From Planctomycetota bacterium (GTDB taxonomy: Bacteria > Planctomycetota > B129-G9): a stretch of DNA of 5,401 nt. The notes under the pieces were generated by a model. The model made no database searches. It was not told the DNA's origin and saw nothing but the letters and a program-made list of their open reading frames with translations. How positions within the stretch are numbered: position 1 is the stretch's first letter; each line of letters begins with the position of its first letter. The stretch covers positions 1 to 5,401 of the forward strand of contig QNCA01000132.1 in assembly GCA_003644325.1 (NCBI GenBank). The letters run 5' to 3'. This document shows positions 1 to 5,401 of this stretch, in pieces. Position numbers and translations under genes: made by a program.

Positions 1-66
1 CTTCAAACTCAGGACGGGGCCGGGAACTGGAACGATCCGGAGACGGTGTTTGTCTTCCGTTTCGAC
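1..66 (+). repeat. Domain 0, C-terminal 22 residues only
   Basis: The sequence begins inside a domain, just before the QDGAGN turn, and ends with the VFRFD strand. This shows that the array continues upstream of the window. FRFD replaces the common FRYD, as it does in domains 11 and 15. Confidence 0.9.
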
Positions 67-3000
67 GATACTCCGCCGCCCAACCCCCCTCGACCGGCGA
101 TAGAAGCGCATAACGTCCAGGACGGCGAATGGCAGGGTGTTACTTCACAACCGGATTTTACCTGGATACCGGTGGAGGATCCGAATGGCATTGCGCAGTA
201 CAAAGTCTTCTGGGGCACCGACCAGGATGCGGCGGTGTCGTTCGTGACGGCTGCGAGCTACTCGGTGCCTGAAGCAGTGGACTCAGGCGACGTGTACTAC
301 CTGAACGTCCTTGCCCAGGATGGGTGCGGCAACTGGAGCGCGGAGCCATTGGTGTACGATCCGACCAGCGCGGTGTTCGAGTTCCGGTACGACGACACCC
401 CGCCGACTTCGCCTTCACGGCCCGCCGATTGCGCCTGTTCGCCTGGCGATGGGATGTGGCAGAACTCTTGCCAGAACCCAACCTTCACCTGGGATAATGC
501 CACCGATGACGGAGAGATCGCCGGGTACGAGGTGTACTGGGGTGCCGATCCGGCGGGGTTGCCTGTGGAGTACGTGGCGACGGCGCGGTATGCGCCGGAT
601 CCGGTGGAGTCCGGGGTGTATTATCTGCGCGTGCGCACACTGGACGCAGTGGGGCATACGAGTTCCGTGAAGACGCTGTACGAATTTCGCTACGACAGCG
701 ATGTGCCGGGTGCGCCCTCCCGACCGGCGGCTGAGGCACATAACATCCAGGACGGTGTATGGCAGAACACGGTGGATGACCCGGCCTTTACCTGGAGCGG
801 GGCCGCCGACACGCTTTCAGGTGTGGCTGGATACCGCGTCTACTGGGGCACCAACGCTGGAGGCACGCCGAACGAGTGGCGTGATGTGCCGGAGTACGAT
901 CCCGGACCGGTGTCCGCCGGCGTGTATTACCTACGTGTCTCCGTCGAGGATGTGGCGGGCAACGTGAGCGATCCGGTCACGCTATTCACCTTCCGTTACG
1001 ACGATGACTCTCCTCCGGCGACGGTTCGTCCCGCCACTGAAGAGGGCGGGGCCCAGGATGGCGTGTGGCAGAACTCTATCACCAGTCCCTCCTTTGTCTG
1101 GGACGAACCGGCGGGCGCGGACCATTACCTGGTCTACTGGGGCACCAACCCGGCGGGAGTGCCGGCGCTCAATCTGTCTGCACCGGCATACGCACCGGCG
1201 CCCATATCCGGGGATGGTGTGTACTACCTGCGGGTGCAGGTGGTGGATGGAGCGGGCAACAAGAGTGCTCCGGTAACGATGTTCGAGTTCCGCTACGATG
1301 GCACGGCTCCCCATCCGCCGACGGACGCCGATGAACAGAACGGAATCACCGACGGTGACTGGACGGCTATGAATACACCATCGTTCGACTGGGGCGGGGC
1401 TTCCGACGATCACAGCGGAGTCGCGGGATACGTGGTTTATTGGGGCACAGATCCGGATGGCACGCCCAACGTGCCGGTCAGCGTACCGTCCTTTACGCCT
1501 GGTGCGCCCGGAGTTAGTGGGACCTACTACCTGCGTGTGGCAAGTGTGGATGTGGCCGGTAACACGGGGGCGGCGACTACGTTGTTCACATTTCGGTACG
1601 ACGAGACGCCGCCGACTAACCCGGTGCGTCCGGCGGTGGAGGCCGGAGAGACGCAGGATGGCGTCTGGCAGAACAACGTTACCGCGCCGGTCTTCACCTG
1701 GAGCGGGGTCAGTGATGCCCACTCCGGCCTTGCCGGGTACTATGTTTACTTCGGTCTGTCGCCGAACGGCGAGCCGGCGGAGTGGACCGCCAGCGCAAGT
1801 TACGCGCCCGGCGAGGTGAGCACGAGCGGCACGTACTACTTGCGGCTGAAGGCCGTGGATGACGTGGGACACGCAAGCGAGCCGGTGACCCTCTTCGAGT
1901 TCCGCTACGATAGCGATGTGCCGGGTGCGCCCTCCCGACCGGCGACGGAGGCAGGCGGTGCGCAAGACGGAGTGTGGCAGGGAAGCGTCTCCGCTCCATC
2001 CTTCACCTGGGGCGGAGCGACGGACGCCCATTCCAATGTGGCAGGCTACGAGGTCTACTGGGGCACCAACCCGGCGGGCGAGCCGGTGACATTCACTGTT
2101 TCATCCAGTTACACACCGCCGCCGGTGACGGCAAACGGAGTGTACTACCTGCGCGTCCGGGCCGTGGATGGTGCGGGAAACAAGAGCCCCGTTGCCACAC
2201 TGTTCGATTTCCGTTACGACAGCACCCCGCCGACCAACCCAAATACAGTAGACGAGGGACAGGGAACAGCGTCGGGGCTGTGGACAGCGGTCTCGGAGCC
2301 TGAGTTCTGGTGGGGCGGTGCCCACGATGCGCTGTCGGACGTGGTGGGCTATCGTGTCTACTGGGGGATGTCGGAGGATGGTGTCCCCGACACCTGGGTG
2401 ACGGCTCCCGAATATGCCCCGGCGCAACTGCACACCTCCGGGGTGTATTACCTGCGTGTCTCGACCGAGGACGGAGCCGGGAACAGGAGTACCCCGGCGA
2501 CGCTGTTCGAGTACCGGTATGATGGGGACGCCCCTGTCGCCGTGACCCGCCCGGTGACGGAGACGCACGGCATAGAGGACGGCTCGTGGCAGAACGTGGT
2601 GAACGACCCTGCCTTCACCTGGGGCGGAGCCGCCGACGCGCATTCCGGTGTGATGGGATACGAGGTCTACTGGGGTACGAACCCGGGTGGTGAGCCGTCG
2701 GAGTTGGTTACATCACCGGCTTACGCCCCCCCATCGGTGCCAGACGGAGTCTACTATCTCCGTCTGAGCGCGGTGGACGACGCCGGTAACCGGACGACGC
2801 CGGTGACGGTGTTCGAGTTCCGTTATGACAGTGTGCCGCCGTCGCCGCCTGTGCGGCCTGCGACGGAGATGGGGGGCGCACAGGATCAGGTATGGCAGAA
2901 TGACGTATCCAGCCCATATTTCGCCTGGTCGCCGGTGGCGGAGGCCACGGAGTATCTGGTGTACTGGGGCACAGACCCGTCCGGGTTGCCAGTGGAATCG

Positions 3001-5401
3001 GTGACCCACCCTTACTACGCTGCCGGTGTGGTCGGCGAGGGGACATACTACCTGCGGGTACTATCTCGTGACCAGGCAGGCAACGAAAGTGTTCCGGTCA
3101 CATTGTTCGAGTTCCGCTACGACGACACGCCGCCCACAGGTCCCACCTCGGCCAGTGAGAACGGCGGAGGTGTGAGCAGTGGCGAATGGACAGCACGTGC
3201 CGATCCCGCTTTTGCTTGGAGCGGAGCCACTGACGCATCGAGCGACATCGGCGGATACCTGGTGTACTGGGGGCTCGACCCCGGCGGCGACCCGATGATG
3301 GAGGTGACCGTTCCTGGGTACACGCCCGCGCCGCTGACGGCGGATGGGACGTATTACCTGCGTGTCCGGGCTGTGGACGGCGCGGGAAACGTGGGTGACA
3401 TAGTAGACCTCTACGAATACCGCTTTGACAGTACGTCTCCGGTCGTGATCCGACCGGTGGCAGAGACGCACGGCGTGCAAGATCGCACTTGGCGCGGAGA
3501 CGTTGACTTTCCATCCTTCGTCTGGGACGATGCAGCGGATAGAGGTAGCGGGATAGGTGGATACTATATCTACTGGGGCACCGATGCCGGAGGATCGCCG
3601 GGTGAGTGGGTCGAGAAAGGAGATTTCGCGCCGGGAGTGGTAGATACAGGGGTGTACTATTTGCGTGCTCTGCCGGTGGACGCTGTAGGCAACCAGGGCG
3701 ACGCGACGACATTGTTCGAGTTCCGCTACGATGGTGCGCCTCCCACGGCGCCCACCTGGTCGGTCGAGGCTGGCGGGGCCCAGGATGGCGTGTGGCAGAA
3801 CTTCGTCACTGCTCCGCATTTCACCTGGGGCGGGGCCGCCGATGGAGAGTCGGGATTGGGCGAATACCGGGTCTACTGGGGCACCAGTCCAGCAGGGCAG
3901 CCGGCCATCTCCACGACTCTGGCTGGTTACGCGCCGGGGCCGGTGGATGGTGACGGCACGTACTACCTGCGGTTGAGCTCGGTGGACAGAGTGGGCAACG
4001 AGAGTGTGCCGGATACTTTGTTCACCTTCCGGTACGATGGAACTCCCCCTGACGCGCCGACGGTAGCCTACGGCGCGCCTGGAGGCGGCTGGTCGGCAGA
4101 GAATGAGCCGATGTTCACCTGGGACAGGGTGAGTGATCTGAGCGGGATAAGCGGGTATGAAGTCTACTGGGGCACCAGTCCTTATGGGACACCGGGGACA
4201 TTCGTGGACGCGGCGGCATACACGCCGGTCTCACTGTCCGAGGATGGCACATATTACCTGCGCGTCCGGGCTGTGGATGGTGCGGGAAACAAGAGCTCGG
4301 TGGCGACGTTGCTCGAATACCGCTACGATGGCACACCGCCGGGTGAACCTGCAAATGTGACCGAGGAACACGGGGTCACTGACAAGGGATGGACAAACAT
4401 CAGTAACCCAGAATTCACCTGGACGTGCGCCGACGAAGCGTCGGGTGTGGATTACTACGAGGTCTACTGGGGAACTGACCCCTCCGGGCAACCTGCAGAA
4501 CGGGCAGGCGATCCGGTTTTCTCGCCGGGTTACCTGGACGCCAGCGGCAACTACTATCTCCGCGTGCGTGCCACGGACAACGTGGGGAACGTGTCCACGA
4601 CGGATACCATTTTCGAGTATCGGTTCGACAATCAGAAACCCGGTCAGCCCTCCGGAGCGGTGGAAGCGCACGGAATAGAGAGCGGTGTATGGCAAAACTC
4701 TATCACCGAACCTATCTTCGTGTGGAACTCCGGCGGTGATGACGAGAGTGGCGTGGCAGGCTACAACGTCTACTTTGGGCCAATGATGTATGGTCCGCCG
4801 GATGTGTACGTGGCCGATACGACGTACCAGACCTCGACCATCTCTGATGGTATCTATTACTTGCGGGCCGGCACGCTGGACCGGGCGGGGAACAAAAGCC
4901 CGACGGCGGCGCTGTTCGAGTTCCGCTACGACGGCACCCCGCCGCCCCAACCGGCGTGGGTGACGGAAAATCACGGCCTGAGCGATGGGGATTGGAGCAA
5001 TGTTACCACTCCTGCCTTCGAGTGGGAGGAGGTGGAGGACGGGGCTTCCGGCGTGGCCCGGTACCGGGTCTACTGGGGCTCCGACCCAGGCGGGATACCC
5101 AACGTGGACTTGACCACGCCGGGCTACACCGGGACGGTAAGCGGTGACGGCGACTATTACCTGCGCCTGTACGTCGAGGATCAGGCCGGCAACCGAAGCG
5201 CGATCACGACGGTCTACACGCTGCGCTATGATGCTACAGCCCCTCGGATGCCGGATGAGGCCGCCGAAAGCCACGGCGTAGAGGACGGCTCGTGGCAGAA
5301 TGTGGTGAACGACCCTGCCTTCACCTGGGATGCAGCCGACGACGGCGGGAGCGGAGTGGCCCACTACCTGGTCTACTTCGGCAGCGACCCGGCCGGTGAA
5401 C
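1..5401 (+). CDS. Giant tandem-repeat Fn3/Ig-like surface protein, internal fragment (both ends outside window)
   Basis: Frame 1 is open across all 1,800 codons; I read it codon by codon and found no stop. It holds the end of one domain, 17 complete domains of 97-109 residues and part of another. Each domain shows the F-x-W strand, a (V/I)(Y/F)(W/F)G strand, YYLR (YYLN in domain 1), D-x-x-G-(N/H), and a terminal R-(Y/F)-D. The order Trp strand, GY-x-VYW strand and YYLRVRAVD strand matches the B, C and F strands of fibronectin type III-like folds; this is a pattern match, not a profile search. No catalytic motif, membrane segment or signal peptide is visible. The protein is acidic (domain 9 has 14 Asp/Glu against 4 Arg), with 10 Lys and 5 Cys in 1,800 residues. 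By family analogy it is probably an exported structural stalk, adhesin or matrix protein; this role is inferred. The full protein exceeds 1,800 residues by an unknown amount. A role as the spacer region of a large extracellular enzyme is equally possible. Confidence 0.95.
67..393 (+). repeat. Domain 1 (109 residues), divergent and longest
   Basis: It begins DTPP and has EAHNVQDGEW, FTW and VFWGT. It departs from the consensus in three ways: YYLN replaces YYLR, the SGVAGY turn is replaced by NGIAQY, and about seven extra residues lie between the GN turn and the last strand. It also carries a Cys in that turn (DGCGN, residue 109). Confidence 0.9.
394..696 (+). repeat. Domain 2 (101 residues), three-Cys linker
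   Basis: The usual linker after RPA is replaced by DCACSPGDGMW, and a third Cys follows in WQNSC (Cys residues 144, 146 and 157). The rest is typical: FTW, AGYEVYWG, GVYYLRV and EFRYD, with GH in place of GN in the turn. Confidence 0.9.
697..729 (+). repeat. 33-bp identical DNA patch, partner at 1912-1944
   Basis: The opening of domain 3 and the opening of domain 7 are identical, encoding SDVPGAPSRPA. They are four domains apart, which does not fit the three-domain period. Confidence 0.85.
697..1002 (+). repeat. Domain 3 (102 residues)
   Basis: Typical unit with EAHNIQDGVWQN, FTW, SGVAGYRVYWGT, YYLRV and DVAGN. Its opening SDVPGAPSRPA is shared at the DNA level with domain 7. Confidence 0.9.
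1003..1299 (+). repeat. Domain 4 (99 residues), short-turn variant
   Basis: First domain of a super-repeat, with GGAQDGVWQN. Between the Trp strand and VYWGT it has only nine residues (DEPAGADHY), so about four residues of the usual SGVAGY turn are missing. Domain 10 shows the same loss. Confidence 0.9.
1045..1075 (+). repeat. 31-bp identical DNA patch, partner at 3772-3802
   Basis: The sequence encoding GGAQDGVWQN is identical in domain 4 and domain 13. Domains 7 and 10 encode nearly the same residues with different synonymous codons. Confidence 0.85.
1300..1602 (+). repeat. Domain 5 (101 residues), WTA type
   Basis: It has NGITDGDWTA in place of QDGVWQN, then FDW, SGVAGYVVYWGT, YYLRV and DVAGN, ending TFRYD. 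Confidence 0.9.
1603..1911 (+). repeat. Domain 6 (103 residues)
   Basis: It has EAGETQDGVWQN, FTW, SGLAGYYVYFG (Phe for Trp), YYLRL and DDVGH in the turn (His for Asn, as in domain 2). The last strand is EFRYD. Confidence 0.9.
1912..2220 (+). repeat. Domain 7 (103 residues)
   Basis: It is close to the overall consensus: SDVPGAPSRPA, GGAQDGVWQ, FTWGGA, VAGYEVYWGT, YYLRVRAVDGAGNKS. Its YYLRV to GNKS DNA is nearly identical to that of domain 14. Confidence 0.9.
2146..2187 (+). repeat. 42-bp near-identical DNA patch, partner at 4255-4296
   Basis: One mismatch in 42 bp (gcc/gct) between domain 7 and domain 14, covering YLRVRAVDGAGNKS. The copies are seven domains apart, which again does not fit the three-domain period. 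Confidence 0.85.
2221..2523 (+). repeat. Domain 8 (101 residues), WTA type
   Basis: The linker is divergent (TASGLWTA) and the Trp strand reads FWW, a double Trp unique in the window. VYWG is followed by MSEDG instead of the usual T(N/D)P(A/G)G. It ends with EYRYD. Confidence 0.9.
2524..2829 (+). repeat. Domain 9 (102 residues), HG type
   Basis: It has ETHGIEDGSWQN, FTWGGA, SGVMGYEVYWGT, YYLRL and DDAGN. The block from HGIEDGSW to FTW is almost identical in DNA to domain 18. It contains 14 acidic residues and 4 Arg. Confidence 0.9.
2566..2623 (+). repeat. 58-bp near-identical DNA patch, partner at 5272-5329
   Basis: Two mismatches in 58 bp between domain 9 and domain 18 (ata/gta and aac/aat), encoding HG(I/V)EDGSWQNVVNDPAFTW. 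The copies lie nine domains (three super-repeats) and about 2.7 kb apart. The rest of the two domains is much less similar. Confidence 0.85.
2830..3123 (+). repeat. Domain 10 (98 residues), short-turn variant
   Basis: It has GGAQDQVWQN, then FAW and a nine-residue turn (SPVAEATEY) before LVYWGT, as in domain 4. It continues with YYLRV and DQAGN and ends EFRYD. Confidence 0.9.
3124..3429 (+). repeat. Domain 11 (102 residues), WTA type
   Basis: It has GVSSGEWTA, FAW, IGGYLVYWG followed by LDPGGD, then YYLRVRAVDGAGN and a last strand EYRFD. Confidence 0.9.
3430..3732 (+). repeat. Domain 12 (101 residues), HG type
   Basis: It has RPVAETHGVQDRTW, clearly similar to the linker of domain 9 (RPVTETHGIEDGSW), followed by RG instead of QN. 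FVW, GIGGYYIYWGT, YYLRA and DAVGN complete the unit. Confidence 0.9.
3733..4038 (+). repeat. Domain 13 (102 residues)
   Basis: It has GGAQDGVWQN, FTWGGA, EYRVYWGT, YYLRL and DRVGNESVP. The GGAQDGVWQN codons are identical to those of domain 4, nine domains upstream. Confidence 0.9.
4039..4329 (+). repeat. Domain 14 (97 residues), shortest complete unit
   Basis: The linker is shortened by about three to four residues (YGAPGGGWSA). The remainder is typical: FTW, GISGYEVYWGT, YYLRVRAVDGAGNKS and EYRYD. Confidence 0.9.
4330..4629 (+). repeat. Domain 15 (100 residues), HG type
   Basis: It has EEHGVTDKGWTN, FTW followed by a lone Cys (TWTCADEASG, residue 1476), VYWGT, YYLRV, DNVGN and EYRFD. The Cys has no partner within the domain. 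Confidence 0.9.
4630..4932 (+). repeat. Domain 16 (101 residues)
   Basis: It opens NQKPGQP instead of xTPPxxP, then EAHGIESGVWQN, FVW, SGVAGYNVYFG, a divergent PMMYGPP segment, YYLRA, DRAGNKSP and EFRYD. Confidence 0.9.
4933..5232 (+). repeat. Domain 17 (100 residues)
   Basis: It has ENHGLSDGDWSN, FEW, SGVARYRVYWG, YYLRL, DQAGN and a last strand TLRYD, where Leu replaces the usual Phe or Tyr before RYD. Confidence 0.9.
5233..5400 (+). repeat. Domain 18, N-terminal 56 residues only
   Basis: It has ESHGVEDGSWQN, FTW, SGVAHYLVYFG and SDPAGE, and is cut by the end of the window. The array therefore continues downstream. Confidence 0.9.

Follow-up and report, generated by a model that had tools for sequence, protein, structure and literature searches.

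The window, that is the whole stretch of DNA analysed here (5,401 nucleotides), corresponds to one entire contig (C170) of a genome assembled in 471 contigs and about 80% complete. It is occupied by an open frame for a giant protein, whose encoded part (1800 residues) comprises 17 complete and 1 partial Ig-like/FN3-like (Big_13) domains. The domains measure about 100 residues, and each ends with a C-terminal R(Y/F)D motif. According to the number of residues from Trp to Pro, they have been sorted into a long type A (six residues) and a short type B (five residues). The interval 1003-4629 coincides exactly with domains 4 to 15, which have been assigned to a first, second and third phase (Table 1). 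Domain 1, with a seven-residue insertion ahead of its last strand, ranks with the most divergent units (34-44% identity to the others). No match to the remainder of the gene was found on any other contig of the same genome, and no tandem repeat was detectable by TRF in the DNA of the window. Judging from the family, the protein, both ends of which lie off the contig, probably forms a stalk that is secreted or exposed at the surface. Two minus-strand open frames run antisense to the array; these long frames are probably shadows of codon use in a GC-rich repeat gene.

Table 1. Open frames and domains of the window
Feature	Coordinates	Strand	Phase	Type	Remarks
Open frame, giant protein of tandem Ig-like/FN3-like domains	1-5400	+			sole open frame, running off both contig edges
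Domain 1	67-393	+		A	
Domain 2	394-696	+		A	
Domain 3	697-1002	+		A	
Domain 4	1003-1299	+	first	A	GGAQD; 8-residue short turn
Domain 5	1300-1602	+	second	B (WTA)	one residue short; Phe in last strand
Domain 6	1603-1911	+	third	A	
Domain 7	1912-2220	+	first	A	GGAQD
Domain 8	2221-2523	+	second	B (WTA)	EYR in last strand
Domain 9	2524-2829	+	third	A	HGI
Domain 10	2830-3123	+	first	A	GGAQD; 8-residue short turn
Domain 11	3124-3429	+	second	B (WTA)	EYR in last strand
Domain 12	3430-3732	+	third	A	HGV
Domain 13	3733-4038	+	first	A	GGAQD
Domain 14	4039-4329	+	second	B (WSA)	EYR in last strand
Domain 15	4330-4629	+	third	B (WTN)	EYR; disrupts the AAB order
Domain 16	4630-4932	+		A	HGI; outside the regular part
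Domain 17	4933-5232	+		B (WSN)	HGL; outside the regular part
Domain 18, partial	5233-5400	+		A	HGV
Antisense open frame, 349 aa	982-2031	-			
Antisense open frame, 389 aa	4231-5400	-			

Ten of the 15 Pfam families listed score above their own cut-off, Big_13 (PF19077) highest (140.9 bits against a gathering cut-off of 27, seven stretches passing alone). Fibronectin type III (PF00041) is weaker (45.1 bits against 25, three stretches). The OmpL47-type domain (NF047446) reaches 195.5 bits in twelve stretches, against an NCBIfam cut-off of 40; its name implies a beta-barrel, but the predicted model resembles Ig/FN3 chains instead. CbhB, also matched in NCBIfam, was discarded, as its score falls far under the cut-off. 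The likeness to Big_13 arrays resides in the 140.9-bit score, though the family model implies no period of three. Relatives were drawn from the best 120 of 170 and the best 120 of 136 matches (about 8,000 candidates scored in each search) and from all 34 matches of another search, and the nine top-scoring other proteins are 33-43% identical to the window protein. In 39 related genomes, weak matches (27-35% identity) occur in 3, with neither a close copy nor a second strain. A first scan of named genomes yielded no close relative; a second yielded 7 loci, two of which, the ones read (L026 and L027), are not long arrays of this domain. Domains 7-9, used as a query against solved structures by sequence, gave no match at E<=10, and the literature consulted on domain repeats, searched under neither organism nor gene, held no description of the present array.

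Structures predicted for domains 7-10 (pLDDT 92.8, pTM 0.72) and 9-12 (93.0, 0.70) are both chains of beta domains. Among solved chains, the former model comes nearest to FN3 arrays and to the grappling hook protein. Grappling hook protein A of Aureispira (9fls, 9flu and others) and SiiE (2yn3, 2yn5) share 11-20% identity with the window protein and resemble it in fold only; human FN3 arrays score as high. Such resemblance between a model and solved chains indicates fold, not function.

A period of three domains and its place in the domain

According to the preliminary description, the array hides a repeat of three domains, which predicts an excess of identity at distances +3, +6 and +9. Mean identities at distances +1 to +9 among domains 4-15 measure 47.5, 47.8, 51.9, 47.7, 46.8, 50.7, 50.5, 45.6 and 48.5%. 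The excess is found at all three predicted distances (51.9, 50.7 and 48.5%, against 45.6-47.8% at +1, +2, +4, +5 and +8), and because it is present the claim survives the test that had been proposed against it. Pairs separated by multiples of three are more identical than the others, by 3.36 points in the protein (p=0.003, domain-order permutation) and by 1.97 points in the DNA (p=0.003). The range 4-15 had been chosen on motifs, and wider ranges therefore provide a fairer test: the in-phase excess is +1.59 points in the protein for domains 1-17 (p=0.016) and +2.00 points for domains 1-18 (p=0.002), the partial domain 18 being used in the latter range and in motif and subtype counts only. The excess remains stable across four alignment methods and BLOSUM62 scoring. 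No identity excess was found in the array for periods of 2, 4 or 5, and only a weak one for period 6 (p=0.06 to 0.12 in protein, 0.014 to 0.07 in DNA). The mean at +7 (50.5%) runs counter to a clean period, the pair 6-13 (62%) being the top at that distance, and the best protein pairs, 6-13 and 3-7 (62% each), are both out of phase. Neighbouring domains share 46.5% identity. A period of three exists in the array, but is weak.

Some individual pairs stand out. Domains 3 and 7, at distance four, have a common start (SDVPGAPSRPA) and 65% DNA identity, a resemblance likely due to out-of-phase exchange or copying. The closest pair of the array is made by domain 9 and the partial domain 18, at distance nine, with 67% DNA identity over the available part.

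Motifs follow the period to different degrees. GGAQD is limited to domains 4, 7, 10 and 13, and WTA/WSA to domains 5, 8, 11 and 14, as originally described. HG(I/V/L) is found as stated in domains 9, 12, 15 and 18, but domains 16 and 17 carry it too; EYR marks the last strand of domains 8, 11 and 14, but of 15 too. The short turn (8 residues from Trp to Tyr, against 11-12 elsewhere) is indeed carried by domains 4 and 10, but these are just two of the four first-phase domains, 7 and 13 being without it; for two domains drawn from twelve, chance alone places both in the same phase in 18 of 66 cases. HG and GG are two common states at alignment column 15, and relatives also carry GGAQ (P0018) and HGA (P0004, P0006).

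The signal is concentrated at one end of the domain. In the first 30 columns of domains 4-15 the in-phase excess is +9.73 points (p=0.0016), in the rest of the domain (about 70 residues) +1.01 points (p=0.13), and the contrast between the two parts has p=0.0038; columns 94-100, an insertion found in domain 1 alone, were excluded from these tests. Variable columns (>1.5 bits entropy) behave in the same way, as 18 columns of the N-terminal part feature an excess of +10.1 (p=0.009), 39 columns of the rest one of +0.3 (p=0.40). Over the ranges 4-15 and 1-17 the N-terminal signal has p=0.0015 to 0.0092. A boundary set automatically at column 50, later than 30, blurs the contrast (N-terminal part +2.4, p=0.02; rest +1.0, p=0.12). 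When types A and B were kept fixed and domains shuffled within each type, p rose to 0.11 for the whole domain and to 0.031 for the first 30 columns, so that the rhythm lies mostly in where one subtype is placed. Other arrays differ in this respect. P0010 and P0035, which result from plain three-domain copying, carry the phase in either part of the domain (+8.0/+10.3 and +24.1/+26.9 over variable columns, respectively), whereas in the window it is confined to the N-terminal part, and the window is thus unlike a fresh block copy. The period-three signal resides in the rest of the domain in P0028, P0033 and P0163, in both parts in P0031.

Short domains in the window and in the family

Domains 5, 8, 11, 14, 15 and 17 are of type B, and the order A-A-B is unbroken from domain 3 through domain 14. 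Given six B domains among 18, four of them lie at an equal step of three in 222 of 18,564 arrangements, and at any equal step of at least two in 853. Tyr replaces Phe in the last strand of domains 8, 11, 14 and 15, and in none of the other 13 complete domains. Outside the window, 15 of the 24 short domains carry Tyr, compared with 6 of the 157 long ones (Fisher p=1.7e-11, relatedness ignored); the test of this coupling corrected for relatedness had 2 usable pairs and therefore no power.

Short domains are scattered over the family. A tree was made from 224 rows and 93 columns, the rows representing 224 of the 269 parsed domains, with at most four type A rows per protein except for the window and P0003. 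The fewest changes between types on this poorly resolved tree are 24, of which well-supported branches force 3; a single lineage of short domains was set aside, gain and loss being indistinguishable. Other arrays carry B domains with no fixed step: all four parsed domains are of type B in P0044, the first and third in P0007.

P0003, from a Bacteroidales MAG, is 37% identical to the window protein. B domains occupy the 6th, 9th, 12th and 15th places of its 16-domain run, and all have the last-strand Tyr; four places in 16 make a step-three series in 7 of 1820 cases, and P0003 was picked for its period of three. Between the two proteins, B domains resemble B domains (39.4%) more than A domains (35.0%), and the in-register excess is 1.3 points (p=0.002). 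A domains, in contrast, are 35.0% identical in the same phase and 35.4% across phases. A match in register of the two arrays was thus dismissed, as the B domains alone agree. In P0003 the identity excess is +1.0 in the N-terminal part (p=0.18) and +1.5 in the rest (p=0.05). An ancestral triplet common to the window and P0003 is therefore unsupported, because A domains are off register and the excess lies outside the N-terminal part.

Periodic arrays have been identified elsewhere in the family. The survey took in 57 of 240 proteins, those with at least nine consecutive domains. With p-values uncorrected for the several periods tried per array, a period of three was found at p<=0.05 in 8 of the 57, the window included, a period of two in 7 (two of them nearly copies of one another), of four in 6, of five in 0 of 43, of six in 2 of 31 and of seven in 1 of 25. 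In a smaller survey (16 arrays from 154 proteins), 5 arrays had period three at p<0.03. P0035 and P0010 are made of near-intact three-domain blocks, whose in-phase identities reach 92% and 84%, respectively. P0171, P0172, P0077 and P0119, large Salmonella Ig-like repeat proteins, feature a period of two domains, and P0180, a 40-domain run, a period of seven (p=0.001). As several periods recur among the 57 arrays, higher-order repeats are not rare in the family. The 2006 study of domain repeats which serves as our term of comparison is presumably that of Björklund, Ekman and Elofsson. On higher-order repeats, the survey agrees with the relevant sections of that study (PMC1553488).

Age and origin of the period

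The domain trees have no well-supported branch. Checked on the trees, the three phases proposed in the preliminary description emerge in part. The second is weakly a clade, being split off by a single branch of the protein tree (56/65); with DNA, its members group with domain 15 (71/90). The first holds partly, three of its four members (4, 10 and 13) staying grouped on the DNA tree (87/90). Members of the third are scattered, and make no clade in either the protein or the DNA tree (four changes, the maximum, in both). In domains 4-15, third-base identity at four-fold sites amounts to 0.348 for in-phase pairs and 0.347 for the others, against a random expectation of 0.315; in domains 1-17 the values are 0.387 and 0.366 (p=0.13). 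The duplication would hence be old, as both classes are near random. Synonymous sites were discarded as a clock for in-phase copies, being near saturation and carrying no significant in-phase excess. No clean block edges were seen when 20-column stretches were painted by best partner; best partners counted at distances +2, +3, +6 and +9 are 25, 18, 21 and 12 (16.9, 15.8, 12.4 and 9.0 expected).

Growth by copying blocks of about 900 bp, as originally proposed, finds its in-phase excess in the array, but the domain body carries no phase and the third phase forms no clade. Such copying should mark the whole domain; the proposal is supported in part. We favour, at about even confidence, the view that the weak period, restricted to the first ~30 residues, is the eroded trace of an old multi-domain duplication. 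A block of two A domains and one B domain would have been copied, thereby setting the order, and four-fold sites have come near saturation since then. Single domains would probably have been exchanged, or have diverged, out of phase afterwards. What still carries the phase would likely be a slow character, the deletion of one residue after Trp with Thr/Ser-Ala in place of Gln-Asn, accompanied in every second-phase domain except 5 by last-strand Tyr instead of Phe.

Alternatively, the B-type start might be held at every third place by selection, as it would determine how that domain joins or faces in the stalk, while bodies drift freely. This is rather unlikely in our estimate. The restriction of the signal to the linker and first-hairpin segment fits it, as do the B domains placed at every third position, with Tyr, in P0003 as well, and the resemblance of B to B between the two proteins. 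A domains, however, are out of register between window and P0003, the excess in P0003 lies in the rest of the domain rather than in the N-terminal part, domains 15 and 17 are of type B at irregular places, and P0044 and P0007 carry B at no fixed step. Predicted starts and junctions also look alike across phases. In both models confidence at domain starts drops along the construct independently of phase, the start blocks of domain 10 scoring 75 and 84 when it is the fourth domain, 93 and 94 when it is the second; ten-residue start blocks score 96 (domain 8) and 84-96 (domain 11) in type B, 75-96 in inner type A domains. The two kinds of interface suggested in the preliminary description thus find no support in the two models, in which junction confidence follows position, not phase; the same holds for phase-specific junctions.

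By chance, one frequent subtype and two frequent variants of the consensus might stand at equal steps, the rest having been picked post hoc. The occurrence of GGAQ and HGA in relatives, the scatter of the short type over the family tree, and the two of the five listed motifs that violate the rule all speak for it. Whole-domain permutations giving p=0.002 to 0.016, in ranges extending beyond the chosen block, and the N-terminal signal seen in ranges 4-15 and 1-17 go against it, and we regard chance as unlikely. Quite improbable is that the B start and last-strand Tyr serve as a register mark with a pitch of three domains, selected in at least two distant proteins while the rest drifted. That neighbours are kept unlike against inter-domain misfolding, so that like types are spaced apart, a pressure of the kind proposed for titin Ig domains (PMC4660218), is very improbable, as adjacent domains are no less alike in the window (+0.001, p=0.57; N-terminal part -0.021, p=0.17) and in the 57 arrays the median is +0.009, with negative values in 17.

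An old multi-domain duplication has parallels in known systems. In its sections on repeat expansion, PMC1553488 reports that domain repeats mostly expand several domains at once, and that in the Ig family duplication of one domain is likeliest, a distance of two giving weak peaks. Mean similarity as a function of distance in the array is the measure used there too, and it is read in the same way; the worked example peaks at distance three, and fibronectin 3 features units of four. The window differs in having a weak peak, restricted to the first ~30 residues of the domain. The titin A-band, as outlined in PMC3859903, contains super-repeats of 7 or 11 FnIII and Ig domains, which share with the window a fixed order of subtypes of a single fold in a giant protein, but the order of titin is there tied to the thick filament, while the unit of the window is of three and decayed. 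Periscope proteins, in the portion of PMC8201768 devoted to them, are likewise tandem-domain rods, and the Big_13 family was created in that study; the number of their repeats varies, and the repeats resemble each other strongly, whereas neighbours in the window, at the identity given above, fall outside that definition.

Multi-domain growth is an ordinary route for such arrays, described already in 2006, and the window is probably one more case of it, in an array too old to show this growth except via one slow character. Two results may be useful beyond this gene: a test which separates clear block copying from periodicity confined to one part of the domain, and the apparent coupling, in the family, of a post-Trp segment one residue short with Tyr in the last strand.
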